The notes under the pieces were generated by a model, which searched no databases, was not told the DNA's origin, and saw only the letters and a list, made by a program, of their open reading frames with translations. A program made the translations under genes and the position numbers. From Cylindrospermum stagnale PCC 7417 (GTDB lineage Bacteria; Cyanobacteriota; Cyanobacteriia; Cyanobacteriales; Nostocaceae), in assembly GCF_000317535.1 (NCBI RefSeq), contig NC_019757.1, forward strand, positions 3,426,501 to 3,490,500: DNA of 64,000 bases, written 5' to 3'. Below are positions 32,076 through 36,640 of the stretch, piece by piece; within the stretch, counting starts at the first letter, position 1, and every line of letters starts with the position of its first letter.

Positions 32076-32240
32076 ATTGGCACTATAGTTTGGCATTTGT
32101 TTTAATTTAGTCATTGGTCAGTAGGGGGTTACCCAGTCCTTACAGTGATCCGCGCTTAAGAAAAAACAACTGACAACTGGCAACTGACAACTGACAACTC
32201 ATTAAAAAGTGATGAATTTTCACCCATGACAATGGGAAAA
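32076..32240 (+). repeat. tandem duplication, copy 2
   Basis: Begins ATTGGCACTATAGTTTGGCA, includes the TTACCCAGTCC and TTAAGAAAAAACAACTGAC blocks of copy 1, and ends in the asparaginase start (ACCCATGACAATGGGAAAA). It is about 18 bp longer owing to extra AACTGAC heptamers at 32167-32198. Confidence 0.85.
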
Positions 32241-33179
32241 CGAACTCAGGCCGCAGCACTGGAAGTCAGGCTGCTACGGGAAGGGATTATAGAATCTAGG
32301 CATACAGTCCAAGCTGTTGTCTGCGACGAACGGGGACGGGTTCTGTCTGTTGCCGGCAACTCGGAAACTGCCGCATTTGTCCGTTCGGCGCTCAAACCAT
32401 TCCAGGCACTTGCAGTCACCACCACAGGCACACTGGAACGTTACGAACTCAGCGATCGCGATTTGGCAATTATTACCAGTTCCCACAAGGGAGCTATAGA
32501 GCAGGTAAGACAGGTATTTAACATCCTGTGGCGAACCGATCTTGACCCAACCGCACTTCAATGCCCAATTCCTCAAGGCAAGCGCAGCCCTCTGGAATAC
32601 AATTGCTCTGGTAAACACGCCGGGATGTTAGCTGTTTGTCAGCAGCGCCATTGGCCTCTGAACAACTACTTGGAACGCAAACACCCGATCCAGCAGTTAA
32701 TTCTCGGCAAAGTAGCAGAATTGTTGCGAATGCCTGCGGAGGAATTTCTCACCGCTCACGATGACTGCGGCGCACCCACATATCTCATGCAACTCAGTCA
32801 AATGGCGTCTTTGTATGCCCTGCTAGCCTCTAGCACTAACTTGGATATGGAACGCATTGTCCGTGCCATGACTCATCACCCAGTCTTGGTGGCAGGAGAA
32901 GGGGAATTTGACACGGAATTGATGCGCTTAACTCCAGGGGAACTGGTAAGCAAAGCCGGCGCTGAAGGAGTGCAGTGCATTGGTAGGCTCGGTGAGGGTA
33001 TGGGATTAGCCATTAAAGTCATGGATGGAGCCAAGCGGGCAAAATATGCCGTAGCCATCCACCTGCTCCAGCAAATGGGCTGGATTACTCCCAGCATCGC
33101 CCAAAGGCTGTCAGAAAAGTTCATGAGCTTGGGGAAATACAAGCGTTTAGAGGTAATTGGAGAATTATCGCTTTTGTAG
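32226..33179 (+). CDS. L-asparaginase II family protein (PF06089)
   Basis: A 317-aa protein. Blocks LLREGIIESRHTVQAVVCDERGR, RSALKPFQALAV, SSHKGAIEQV, EYNCSGKHAGMLAVC and HDDCGAPTYLM match the asparaginase II family found in rhizobia and cyanobacteria, which is unrelated to E. coli AnsB. It should hydrolyse asparagine to aspartate and ammonia. The start codon lies in copy 2 of a tandem duplication; ATG 32226 or 32232 are both possible. The tRNA-fMet promoter begins at the stop codon. Confidence 0.9.
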   Translation: MTMGKRTQAAALEVRLLREGIIESRHTVQAVVCDERGRVLSVAGNSETAAFVRSALKPFQALAVTTTGTLERYELSDRDLAIITSSHKGAIEQVRQVFNILWRTDLDPTALQCPIPQGKRSPLEYNCSGKHAGMLAVCQQRHWPLNNYLERKHPIQQLILGKVAELLRMPAEEFLTAHDDCGAPTYLMQLSQMASLYALLASSTNLDMERIVRAMTHHPVLVAGEGEFDTELMRLTPGELVSKAGAEGVQCIGRLGEGMGLAIKVMDGAKRAKYAVAIHLLQQMGWITPSIAQRLSEKFMSLGKYKRLEVIGELSLL

Positions 33180-33232: not shown

Positions 33233-33552
33233 CGCGGGATAGAGCAGCCTGGTAGCTCGTCGGGCTCAACGGTGAAATTAACTAAACGCTTATCAGTTAA
33301 CTTCACAGTGGGCGGCATATAAAGAAACTTATATGCGTTTATCTGTCAAACTCGGGGAAGCCAATAGCGCGGTAATCCCGAACCAAGCCTCAGAAATGAG
33401 GAAGGTGTAGAGACTGGAAGGCAGACACCCTAACGTTAATGACGAGGGTGAAGGGACAGTCCAGACCACAAACTGGTTGATCCAGGCAACGAAAGTTGTA
33501 GTTGGTAAGCATAACCCGAAGGTCAGTGGTTCAAATCCACTTCCCGCCACCA
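33233..33552 (+). tRNA. initiator tRNA-fMet(CAT) split by a group I intron
   Basis: Exon 1 is 33233-33266 (34 nt, beginning CGCGGGATAGAGCAGCC) and exon 2 is 33510-33552 (43 nt, beginning CATAACCCGAAGG, with CCA encoded). Spliced they give a 77-nt initiator tRNA with the three G-C pairs of the anticodon stem (GGG/CCC) and an unpaired 1-72 position (C-C), both initiator hallmarks. The intron sits between U33 and C34. It is transcribed from a strong promoter directly after the asparaginase gene. Confidence 0.96.
33267..33509 (+). ncRNA. self-splicing group I intron (IC3-like) in tRNA-fMet
   Basis: 243 nt. The upstream exon ends in U and the intron ends in G, as group I introns require. Core blocks parallel the Anabaena tRNA-Leu intron: CTCGGGGAAGCC ... 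GGTAATCCCGAACCAAGCC (P4-P6), GGAAGGTGTAGAGACTGG and ACCCTAACG ... GACGAGGGTGAAG (P7/P3/P8 region), then ACAGTCCAGACC. A 12-bp imperfect stem near the 5' end (GTGAAATTAACT/AGTTAACTTCAC) is P2-like. It contains no ORF. An intron at this tRNA-fMet site is known from Synechocystis and other cyanobacteria. Confidence 0.94.
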
Positions 33553-33563
33553 AATCAAAAATG

Positions 33564-33600
33564 AAACCCTGTAATCTTAACGGATTGCGGGGTTTTATTT
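33564..33600 (+). terminator. terminator after tRNA-fMet
   Basis: AAACCCTGTAATC pairs with GATTGCGGGGTTT (two G-U pairs) around a 6-nt loop, followed by TATTTT. It lies 12 bp after the tRNA. Confidence 0.8.
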
Positions 33601-33741
33601 TATGCTGATGATAATTCACCTATTTTATACAGTTGTCAATTATTGCTGTGTTAATATAATTTGTAACAAGACATTTTTACGTATAAATACACTGGGATGT
33701 AATCCATCCACAATTGAATTTCTAAAAAATGAGATAAATTC

Positions 33742-34656
33742 ATGGTTAACCCACAAACCGATAGTGAATGGACAATTCATTCTCTCAATATACATGGAAC
33801 TTTTTTTGAACAATGGTGTGCGGATATTTTTCAGTCTGTACCCGGTTGTAATGTAGTATCAACTAACTATCCGGTAGAGTTTCCTCTTCAGAGTAATTCT
33901 TTGAAAAGTAAAGAAAGCGCACTTGATATATGGGTTGAATTATCTAATCAAGATGAAGTTTATGCTTTTTTAATAGAATGTAAAAAGAATAATCCAGACT
34001 TTGTTGACTGGATATTTTTTCCTAAAAGAGGAAACAATTCCAGAAGAAACCTTGTTTCTCGTATAATAAGGAATCAGGAAAATATTCAATCATATATGTC
34101 TGCTTTGCAGGAAACTAGCCTAGTAAATTTTTTCAATGAAGCTAGAGAATCTCGTGGTAACTATACATCTAAAAAGACCCCCGAAACACAAAGAACTAAG
34201 ACATCCAATCATGCTGTAACAGAAGCATCTAATCAAGTAGCAGTGGCCACTCAAGCTATATGGAGTGAAGAAACAAATTTAGCCTTTGAATTACAGAGGA
34301 AACAGTTAACATCTCAATTGAAGTACCGTATAAAAACATTTATTCCATGTATTGTAACCACAGCAAACCTTTATTCGTGTAGTTTTGATCCGCAAGATGT
34401 AGATCCTAGTCGAGGAGAAATAAATTTTGATGAAGTTAATTTACAAAAAGAGCCATTTATATTTTATGAATATCCTTTACCCAGACACCTTCAACCTACG
34501 GTATCAGACATAGTTGATATTATGTTAAATGGCAAAAGAGATATTTTCGCCAGAATGGATATTATCATCATAAATAGTTTGCATTTAAAGAATATGTTGA
34601 CTCAAGAAAATGCTGTAGAAAATATAATAAATACAATTATTAATACTTCTAAGTAA
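33742..34656 (+). CDS. PD-(D/E)xK-type nuclease-like protein, unknown family
   Basis: 304 aa, AT-rich. The N-terminal 85 residues fit a restriction-endonuclease fold: E23 in the first helix (GTFFEQWCADIF), D62 in SALDIWVEL, then E79-C-K81 in FLIECKK, giving the D...ExK triad. The rest has a low-complexity Asn/Thr/Ala stretch (about 135-170) and a C-terminal domain of unknown type (YRIKTFIPCIVTTANLYSC ... FIFYEYPLPRHLQP). It may be a solitary restriction-type nuclease. It lies between the tRNA-fMet intron and its presumed homing endonuclease; whether it belongs to that element is unknown. Confidence 0.62.
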   Translation: MVNPQTDSEWTIHSLNIHGTFFEQWCADIFQSVPGCNVVSTNYPVEFPLQSNSLKSKESALDIWVELSNQDEVYAFLIECKKNNPDFVDWIFFPKRGNNSRRNLVSRIIRNQENIQSYMSALQETSLVNFFNEARESRGNYTSKKTPETQRTKTSNHAVTEASNQVAVATQAIWSEETNLAFELQRKQLTSQLKYRIKTFIPCIVTTANLYSCSFDPQDVDPSRGEINFDEVNLQKEPFIFYEYPLPRHLQPTVSDIVDIMLNGKRDIFARMDIIIINSLHLKNMLTQENAVENIINTIINTSK

Positions 34657-34685
34657 GAAACACATTAACCATTTTTATTTTGCAG

Positions 34686-35168
34686 ATGGACACAAAACTT
34701 AAAGGAGACATAGCAGAACAAGCGGCGGTTCTTCATGCTTTAAAGCGTGGTTGGGGAGTTTTGAAAACTGTTGGTGATAGACTACCTTATGATTTAGCAT
34801 TTGATGTAGAGGGAACTCTAGTAAAAATCCAAGTTAAATATGCTTGGTTTGATGAACCTTCGGGTAATTATGTGGTAGATAATCGCCGCACCAAAACCAA
34901 TCGGCGGATAATGATTCGAGAAGCCTATAAGCCAGCAGACTTTGATTTTGCTTTAGTCTATATAGAAAATCTTGACCTGTTTTATATCTTCCCGGTAGAC
35001 GTATTCATAGACTACGGTAGCGAAATACACCTTGTTGAAACTGAAAAACGACAGCGGAAACCGCGTTCAGCACAATATCGAAATGCTTGGGAGTTAATCT
35101 TACAAACATCTACAAGTAAAGAAAATTGTGTCTGTTCCCCCGTCGAACTCGTTCAAGTAGAGTTTTGA
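34686..35168 (+). CDS. group I intron-associated PD-(D/E)xK homing endonuclease (I-Ssp6803I-like)
   Basis: 160 aa from the ATG (a TTG six bases earlier is possible). Catalytic residues are E11, D36 in LPYDLAF and Q49-V-K51 in KIQVK, a Q-x-K variant of the usual ExK. NRRTKTNRRIMI and EKRQRKPRSAQYRNAWELI are blocks I associate with the I-Ssp6803I/PF11645 family. In Synechocystis that enzyme is encoded in the tRNA-fMet intron and cuts intronless tRNA-fMet genes at the anticodon. Here it is free-standing 1.1 kb downstream of the intron. Its target is inferred, not shown. Confidence 0.82.
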   Translation: MDTKLKGDIAEQAAVLHALKRGWGVLKTVGDRLPYDLAFDVEGTLVKIQVKYAWFDEPSGNYVVDNRRTKTNRRIMIREAYKPADFDFALVYIENLDLFYIFPVDVFIDYGSEIHLVETEKRQRKPRSAQYRNAWELILQTSTSKENCVCSPVELVQVEF

Positions 35169-35209
35169 TCTATTCTGGAAGAATAGCCATCCAAATAGCT
35201 CGGAGAAAC

Positions 35210-36640
35210 ATGGTTGTGAAGTTGCAACGACCAATTTTAGTAGGAGGGTTGGGACTGTCCTTTTCCCTGTGGATGTTGGACAGTTGGCACGATTCTATAG
35301 TGCAGGTGGGTGAGTTTGGTTTGTTGAGTGCTTTAGCGGTTGGTGGTGGTTTGTGGTTGTTCCAGCAAAAACGCCCGAAAGTCGGTTTAGAACAGCTAGA
35401 TGGTATGCTTGTAGATAGAGCTACCGTGCAAAATGCGATCGCTAAAACCGAAGCTTTAATTAATCAGCTAGCGCAAGAAGCAGAAAACCATCCCGCCTTA
35501 GAGAGACTGCGAGAACAAGTTACTCAGTTATTCTTTGAGTTAGACAGACAAGAAATTACACTCGCTGTAACTGGCGGTTCGTCTGTCGGTAAAAGTACTG
35601 TTATTCAAGTCTTACAGCAAAATCTAGAGAAGTTACATTTCCAAGAGACAGCACCGTTATTTAGAGAAGCGGGTGACAAGTCAGACGCAGAGATTTTAGC
35701 TTCAGTGCAAAAAGCTGATTTTGTCCTGTTCTTGACAAACGGCGATTTGACAGATTCAGAATTTCAAGTTTTACAGCAGCTAAAAGCAGCGCATCAGCCG
35801 ACAATGCTGGTTTTTAACAAACAAGATCAGTATATGCCAGATGAACGCGCCAGCGTTTTGCAGTCGTTGAAACAGCGGATGCAGGGAAATGTTGTGGCTA
35901 CGGCGGTGTCTCCCCTGCCGGTGAAAGTGCGGAAACATGAAGCTGATGGTTCTGTGCAAGAGTGGATGGAACAACCAGCACCAGACATTCAGCAGTTGAA
36001 GCAGCAGTTAGGCGAAATTCTCGCTATCCAAGCACAGCAGCTAGTTTTAGCAACTACCATGAGGAGTGCTAGGCTGCTACAAGCCGAGGTGAAGAACTGG
36101 TTAAACGCGACGAGATGCGATCGCGCCACCCCCATCATAGAACAATATCAGTGGATAGCTGCCGCTGCTGCCTTTGCTAACCCAGTCCCCGCATTAGATA
36201 TATTAGCCACTGCGGCAATTAATGCCCAAATGGTCATGGATTTGGGTAAAATCTATCAGCAGAAGTTTTCCCTAGAACAAGCGCAAACAGTCGCCGGAAC
36301 TATGGGAAGTTTGATGCTGAAATTAGGTTTAGTCGAACTTTCGACAAAAGCTATTACTACAGTTCTCAAAACTAACGCCGTTACCTTCGTAGCAGGGGGA
36401 ATGGTGCAGGGAGTGAGTGCAGCTTATCTCACCAGAGTAGCAGGGTTAAGTTTAGTTGCCTATTTTGAACAGCAAGAAATTGCTCTAGATTCAGGAAATG
36501 CTTTAAATCTGGATAAACTGCGTCAAACTTTGCAAAATGTCTTCCAGCAAAATCAGCAGATGGCATTTTTGCAAGGCTTTGTTAAGCAAGGTGTGAAACG
36601 GTTATTACCAGAAGCGCAGCAGGTTGAAGTTGTGGGATAA
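35210..36640 (+). CDS. DUF697-type membrane GTPase
   Basis: 476 aa from the chosen start. A short N-terminal membrane hairpin (about 8-48) precedes a GTPase domain with P-loop GGSSVGKST, a switch region, DxxG-like LTNGDLTD and NKQD in LVFNKQDQY. The C-terminal half has hydrophobic helices of the DUF697/YcjF type (ANPVPALDILATAAINAQMVMDLGKIY). Function unknown; relatives are membrane-associated dynamin-like or slr1462-like proteins of cyanobacteria. A frame opens at 35126, but CGGAG five bases before the ATG at 35210 and absence of overlap with the endonuclease gene favour this start. Confidence 0.82.
   Translation: MVVKLQRPILVGGLGLSFSLWMLDSWHDSIVQVGEFGLLSALAVGGGLWLFQQKRPKVGLEQLDGMLVDRATVQNAIAKTEALINQLAQEAENHPALERLREQVTQLFFELDRQEITLAVTGGSSVGKSTVIQVLQQNLEKLHFQETAPLFREAGDKSDAEILASVQKADFVLFLTNGDLTDSEFQVLQQLKAAHQPTMLVFNKQDQYMPDERASVLQSLKQRMQGNVVATAVSPLPVKVRKHEADGSVQEWMEQPAPDIQQLKQQLGEILAIQAQQLVLATTMRSARLLQAEVKNWLNATRCDRATPIIEQYQWIAAAAAFANPVPALDILATAAINAQMVMDLGKIYQQKFSLEQAQTVAGTMGSLMLKLGLVELSTKAITTVLKTNAVTFVAGGMVQGVSAAYLTRVAGLSLVAYFEQQEIALDSGNALNLDKLRQTLQNVFQQNQQMAFLQGFVKQGVKRLLPEAQQVEVVG

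Follow-up and report, generated by a model that had tools for sequence, protein, structure and literature searches.

An ORF-less group I intron in the tRNA-fMet gene of Cylindrospermum stagnale PCC 7417 and a downstream I-Ssp6803I-type endonuclease as a probable split homing unit

INTRODUCTION

The tRNA-fMet gene of Synechocystis PCC 6803 has an intron of 655 nt, with the 150-aa PD-(D/E)XK enzyme I-Ssp6803I (PMC1995217); the gene for this enzyme is described as sitting in P1 and overlapping P1/P2 by 61 nt (PMC3073962). The locus of Cylindrospermum stagnale PCC 7417 analysed here involves the same enzyme family, the same tRNA gene and a group I intron, but its endonuclease gene lies downstream of the entire tRNA gene, whereas that of Synechocystis is inside the intron.

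In phages, ORF-less introns can be mobilized by free-standing endonucleases, a process known as collaborative (or trans) homing (PMC3984707, citing Zeng et al. 2009). Our case is similar in that an ORF-less intron is accompanied by a free-standing enzyme, whose presumed target would be the intron site. It differs in being chromosomal, in concerning a tRNA gene and a PD-(D/E)XK enzyme, and in that the same placement is found in two phyla, with inside-intron versions at the same site. Collaborative homing in phages was reportedly also studied by Bonocora and Shub in 2009, and Goddard and Burt are said to have described, in 1999, how homing genes repeatedly invade, decay and are lost. The coexistence of intact, broken, fragment-only and empty states among the relatives considered here is reminiscent of such a cycle; the difference is that the enzyme is outside the intron, which makes intron loss and enzyme loss separable.

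In the account given by PMC3984707, the joining and parting of endonuclease genes and introns are argued largely from phages. Within the titles and abstract openings of the open-access literature searched, no relative of the enzyme placed downstream of tRNA-fMet was found; an earlier mention in Bonocora and Shub 2001, or in the structure or 2009 specificity papers, is possible.

RESULTS

The split tRNA-fMet gene and the downstream endonuclease

The features of the locus are listed in Table 1; the window is the whole stretch of DNA analysed, i.e. 64,000 nt of contig NC_019757.1. The initiator tRNA gene of C. stagnale PCC 7417 is interrupted by a predicted group I intron, of the self-splicing type. 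The segment 33294-33479 matched the RF00028 covariance model with 58.8 bits (E = 2.3e-12, for a gathering score of 50), an alignment of 17 introns, that of the window included, showed two-sided compensatory changes for 28 of its 70 predicted pairs, and the final G was present in 81 out of 81 extracted introns. In the ORF listing, nothing on the + strand of the intron reaches 50 aa; a mechanical ORF of 96 aa overlaps it on the - strand. An earlier note on this DNA had proposed an ORF-less intron at this place in tRNA-fMet, and the RF00028 score, the exon reading and the ORF listing all bear this out. Since ARAGORN made no call for the split gene in the window, its identity as tRNA-fMet rests on exon matching. 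The genome contains a single split tRNA-fMet junction and no intronless one, up to three mismatches being allowed.

Table 1. Features of the split tRNA-fMet locus (positions in the window)
Feature	Position	Strand	Basis
Upstream flank, L-asparaginase-II-like gene	32226..33179	+	PF06089; synteny
tRNA-fMet 5' exon, ending in ...GGGCU	33233..33266	+	Sequence reading, matched in relatives
Predicted group I intron without ORF (243 nt), interrupting the anticodon region, with a final G	33267..33509	+	RF00028, covariation, same place in 81 extracted introns
tRNA-fMet 3' exon, CCA encoded	33510..33552	+	Sequence reading, matched in relatives
Hairpin and T tract of the tRNA gene, resembling a terminator; left-hand end of the insert	33564..33602	+	By eye
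Passenger ORF, 304 aa, no assigned function	33742..34656	+	ORF listing; occurs also in G312
Predicted I-Ssp6803I-type PD-(D/E)XK homing endonuclease, intact, 160 aa, outside the intron	34686..35168	+	PF11645, 2OST, PADLOC HEase
Right-hand end of the insert, TTTTGATCTATTCTGG leader of the following gene	35163..35178	+	Empty/occupied comparison
Downstream flank, slr1306-family gene	35210..36640	+	NF049994; synteny

The product of the downstream gene matched PF11645 (PDDEXK_5) with 180.3 bits (cut-off 26.1) and 2ost_A, deposited as 'Putative endonuclease', with E = 7.6e-67; 99 of 144 aligned residues are identical between it and PDB 2OST, which we take to be I-Ssp6803I. No NCBIfam match was obtained for this protein. 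It carries E11, D36, Q49 and K51, presumably the active-site residues of I-Ssp6803I-type enzymes. Among 70 homologue rows, D36, Q49 and K51 are invariant where aligned, and E11 is found in 65 of the 66 rows having a residue at that column; residue 11 of 2OST is a Q, presumably that of an engineered mutant. The resemblance to I-Ssp6803I, initially proposed with D36, Q49 and K51 as its signature, was confirmed by these searches, with E11 as an additional residue. As the gene starts 1176 bp beyond the 3'-exon start, the enzyme is not intron-encoded.

It was also recognized by the PADLOC HEase model PDLC03700 (244 bits). This match, together with the varied passenger genes lying between tRNA and enzyme in some relatives, could designate a domesticated or defence nuclease that merely neighbours the tRNA. 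We regard this as very improbable, because the enzyme tracks the intron rather than the tRNA (see below) and because close homologues occupy the intron at the same site.

Most of the gap between tRNA and enzyme is occupied by the 304-aa ORF, which the earlier note had omitted. It was found in 2 of 80 genomes of the family and 2 of 378 genomes of the order, namely the window's genome and G312; in both it sits between tRNA-fMet and enzyme, and the G312 copy has internal stops. It gave no Pfam match, no plasmid match and no viral locus, and AlphaFold2, run without alignment, yielded no usable model (mean pLDDT of 33). That it could be a second nuclease was considered and rejected: besides the lack of a Pfam match, the NCBIfam match was at chance level (E = 0.03) and the PADLOC ThsB match was weak (18.9 bits). 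Differing inserts, labelled here from reading by eye and not from a database, fill the interval in other lineages: opposed small ORFs resembling a toxin-antitoxin pair (L034), an ORF of about 164 aa (L100, L101 and L053), an ORF of 108 aa (L103) and transposase-like ORFs (L050). The distance from the 3'-exon start to the enzyme match was at most 150 bp in 34, and at most 180 bp in 37, of the 49 downstream loci of the census described below; it exceeded 800 bp in nine, the window among them. The 1.18-kb gap of the window is therefore a local feature, and the spacing of 1.1 kb between intron and enzyme reported initially, roughly right for this locus, is not typical of downstream loci.

Empty and occupied sites

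The asparaginase gene is upstream of tRNA-fMet in all 79 placed loci of the family, and the slr1306-family gene is downstream in 48 of them (15 of 16 enzyme genomes versus 33 of 63 other genomes). In empty genomes (e.g. L117, L118 and L129), slr1306 starts about 145 bp past the 3'-exon start. Among the 32 intronless loci having that gene, it is at most 170 bp from the 3' exon in 17, the rest having longer spacers. In occupied loci without passengers it starts about 610-680 bp past the 3'-exon start. The comparison of empty and occupied sites reveals an insert of about 500 bp downstream of tRNA-fMet, running from the T tract of the tRNA terminator to the TTTTGATCTATTC of the slr1306 leader. The TTTTGATCTATTCTGG leader is common to empty sites, and the stop codon of the window enzyme falls inside it. 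On the other side, a hairpin of the same kind as that of the window, itself absent from the consensus scan listing, follows tRNA-fMet in the compared relatives. In this comparison of relatives with and without the intron, of the kind suggested in the earlier note, empty sites such as those above keep the flanks and lack the insert. In G008, of the inside type, the enzyme is within a 644-nt intron, slr1306 starts 239 bp past the 3'-exon start and no enzyme is present downstream of tRNA-fMet.

An ORF-less intron and a free-standing enzyme being both present at one locus, collaborative homing in trans is, on sequence grounds, the reading that best fits the pair. We think it likely that they constitute a split homing unit, in which the enzyme would cut the intronless gene, the intron would protect from cutting, and repair would copy both. 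The steps that we infer, i.e. cutting, protection and co-conversion, would be as follows. Only one tRNA-fMet gene was found; the intron interrupts its anticodon region and would thereby hide the site that the enzyme would cut. If an intronless allele arrives, for example by DNA uptake, the enzyme would cut it at the intron site, and the break would be repaired from the intron-bearing copy via the shared flanks (the asparaginase gene upstream and, often, the slr1306-family gene downstream). This repair would install the intron, and co-conversion of the 3' side would bring the endonuclease gene as well.

Joint occurrence of intron and enzyme

The order sample contained 388 genomes, in which split junctions were accepted with at most two mismatches and intronless junctions with at most three. 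There were 63 split genomes, 303 intronless ones and 22 in neither table, and none was in both, as checked by eye; seven genomes with only three-mismatch split matches were dropped because a reversed control pattern also matches. An enzyme match reaching 110 aa, in some cases with a broken reading frame, was present in 23 genomes, all of which are split and without an intronless copy. The association between enzyme and intron at tRNA-fMet is far above chance (23 split and 0 intronless genomes with the enzyme, versus 40 and 303; Fisher p = 5e-20, uncorrected for kinship). The intron also persists without the enzyme, which counts against a split homing unit: in 40 of the 63 split genomes no match reached 110 aa, and one of these (G125) has only a fragment.

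Of the 80 genomes in the family sample, 79 could be placed, G420 being the exception: 16 have intron and enzyme, one has the intron alone, three are intronless with a fragment and 59 are intronless without enzyme. A kinship-corrected analysis was carried out on 85 family rows, six genomes having been added because they carry enzyme sequence; the enzyme was scored as present when at least 110 residues were aligned, whether or not the frame was open. At least 17 intron changes are required. Intron and enzyme are gained or lost together among related species: out of 13 independent pairs, the enzyme follows the intron in 12-13 and does the opposite in none (p ~0.0005). As the tree used was built from three neighbouring genes, recombination at the locus may have affected it too. 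When the six added genomes were left out, there were 10 pairs, with 9-10 following and none opposite (p ~0.002).

Placements of the enzyme

A census was made with one locus per genome, recognized duplicates being removed, which left 82 loci with an enzyme match. It covers enzyme-positive loci only, gathered largely by similarity to the downstream-type enzyme; enzymes with a start codon and at least 138 codons were considered intact. The intact enzymes were downstream of a split gene in 42 loci, inside the intron in 20, unplaced in one (L067) and beside an intronless gene in none. The non-intact ones were downstream in seven loci, inside in four, beside an intronless gene in seven and unplaced in one (L085, a fragment within an intron). 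Thus, in the cellular loci examined, an intact enzyme is absent beside intronless tRNA-fMet (0 of 62 placed), and where enzyme sequence accompanies an intronless gene, in seven loci, it is fragmentary (62 split and 0 intronless for intact enzymes versus 12 and 7 for broken ones; Fisher p = 1.4e-5, uncorrected for kinship). The outcome that the earlier note regarded as contrary to its proposal, an enzyme equally often beside intronless tRNA-fMet, is not what these 62 loci or the 23 split enzyme genomes of the order sample show.

Such an exclusion also fits an addiction, possibly atop homing, where the enzyme would mainly keep the intron, in the manner of a restriction-modification pair. Because the enzyme gene is outside the intron, loss of the intron alone would leave an enzyme that would cut the essential tRNA-fMet gene: an intron-encoded enzyme would leave with its intron, whereas a downstream enzyme would stay behind. 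Both the 0 of 62 above, with fragments only in the seven intronless loci, and the lack of an intronless copy in the 23 enzyme genomes of the order sample go in that direction. However, homing alone predicts the same exclusion, which is also observed for all 20 intact enzymes of the inside type. The data fit addiction, yet do not separate it from plain homing, and we consider a mainly addictive role rather unlikely.

Of the 73 placed loci having both a split gene and enzyme sequence, 49 show the downstream placement, a share favoured by the use of a downstream-type query. The arrangement is found in many Nostocales, and also in Bacteroidota. Because it is so widespread, the idea that the C. stagnale locus is a snapshot of a transient pre- or post-invasion stage, put forward in the earlier note, was abandoned. 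For the ten inside-type enzymes that were inspected, the start lies 16-34 nt beyond the 5' splice site. A full and a partial copy of the enzyme are in tandem downstream of the split tRNA-fMet at L057:5363-6082.

Two Bacteroidota loci, L067 and L078, are organized differently. In both (approximately L078:9870-10001 and L067:4050-4161) the 3' tail of a tRNA-fMet and a terminator stand before the enzyme, and sequence judged by eye to be integrase-like lies upstream; the split tRNA-fMet of L078 is 8.8 kb upstream of the enzyme, and no other part of tRNA-fMet was found in L067. In these cases an integrative element appears to use the tRNA-fMet end, thereby displacing the enzyme.

A tree of 70 enzymes, including broken ones, requires six changes between inside and outside placements, two of which are forced by well-supported branches. 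Constraining all 46 outside rows into one group gave an AU p of 0.020 (0.016 without two long rows, which were dropped after the tree had been seen), and a single group for the cyanobacterial outside rows was not rejected (AU p = 0.40). A single origin of the outside placement, Bacteroidota included, is disfavoured by these sequence comparisons. When a viral outgroup was used, again without the two long rows, four changes were required and three of them were forced; this tree gave no direction for the relocation, the outgroup branch being long and the deep order not settled.

Selection and inheritance

The median dN/dS of the enzyme is 0.12 (378 non-independent pairs from 28 genomes, one of which has an early stop), which indicates purifying selection on the protein; that of the asparaginase gene is 0.06. 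The median dS is 0.87 for the enzyme versus 1.03 and 1.00 for the flanking genes. Given the closeness of these values, the enzyme appears to be inherited mainly by vertical transmission, without evident recent spread. Horizontal spread was looked for as low enzyme dS, and discarded as unconvincing: 18 of the 378 pairs were below 0.6 of the lower flank value. On this basis, the enzyme seems to be kept largely through descent and to have been lost or replaced repeatedly. When the flanks of occupied and empty sister genomes were compared for identity, no clear conversion tract was seen; a mild dip was seen for G330/G426 only (about 90-93% near the tRNA versus 95-98% further upstream).

The similar dS values of enzyme and flanks and the lack of a clear conversion tract are what would be expected if the enzyme no longer homes, intron and enzyme being linked passengers that are inherited vertically and lost together by one recombination with an empty allele. 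The enzyme starts close to the tRNA in most downstream loci (at no more than 150 bp from the 3' exon in 34 out of 49); a single such event could remove both features, and no enzyme activity would be needed. However, separate losses exist, as seen from the seven intronless loci with fragments and from the 40 of 63 split genomes without a match of at least 110 aa, and after separate loss the enzyme is never intact beside the intronless gene (the 62/0 versus 12/7 distribution). Moreover, a dN/dS of 0.12 implies that the protein is under selection. That intron and enzyme are mere fellow travellers is, in our opinion, rather unlikely.

The PF11645 family and viral relatives

A second PF11645 gene (L200:3061-3711), about 34% identical to the window enzyme, is present in the window's genome, where it adjoins an intact tRNA-Arg(UCU), about 70 bp downstream of it. 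The paralogue region (L200:2916-3711; G000:C2 near 6002563) gave 216 aa when translated, with weak HTH-like C-terminal matches. In 10 out of 10 loci fetched (L192-L201), the paralogue follows an intact tRNA-Arg(UCU) at a distance of about 63-73 bp and is encoded on the same strand; that of L198 is frame-broken and that of L201 matches over its first half only. L211, L212 and L217 (a remnant) also show it downstream of tRNA-Arg(UCU). The anticodon stem of this tRNA varies between carriers. Sixteen matches over the PF11645 cut-off were found in 194 genomes of the phylum, 10 at tRNA-fMet, 5 at tRNA-Arg(UCU) and 1 (L213) without a tRNA within its 3.4 kb. Settlement beside tRNA genes thus seems to be a habit of PF11645 in cyanobacteria; of the two tRNAs concerned, tRNA-fMet alone has an intron.

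One could go further and see PDDEXK_5 as a class of tRNA-linked selfish nucleases that take up residence immediately past the tRNA which they target, with the separate fMet intron as the antidote in a two-part addiction and homing module, and an intronless Arg(UCU) branch perhaps protected by changes within the tRNA. This generalization strikes us as quite doubtful; if it is true, the tRNA-fMet module cannot be lost intron-first.

Outside cellular genomes, an intact relative of 145 aa, 54% identical, was found in a viral contig (L191:2284-2782) between two tRNA genes called by ARAGORN; it extends into the 5' end of a tRNA-Met gene that has no intron. The occurrence of such an enzyme next to an intronless tRNA gene goes against the split homing unit. 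Phage relatives of the window enzyme amounted to six records, with identities of 28.6-35.3%, and none was found in plasmids.

DISCUSSION

In these bacterial chromosomes, one enzyme family at one tRNA site is found inside the intron, just outside it, broken or as a fragment, while other relatives have the intron alone or an empty site with conserved flanks. The coexistence of these states makes it possible to test directly for collaborative homing, for a possible role in addiction and for the way in which mobile introns form. A practical consequence is that endonuclease searches restricted to the interior of introns would miss the downstream placement in these cyanobacteria. To conclude, the tRNA-fMet locus offers a natural system to study how mobile intron-enzyme pairs form and persist.
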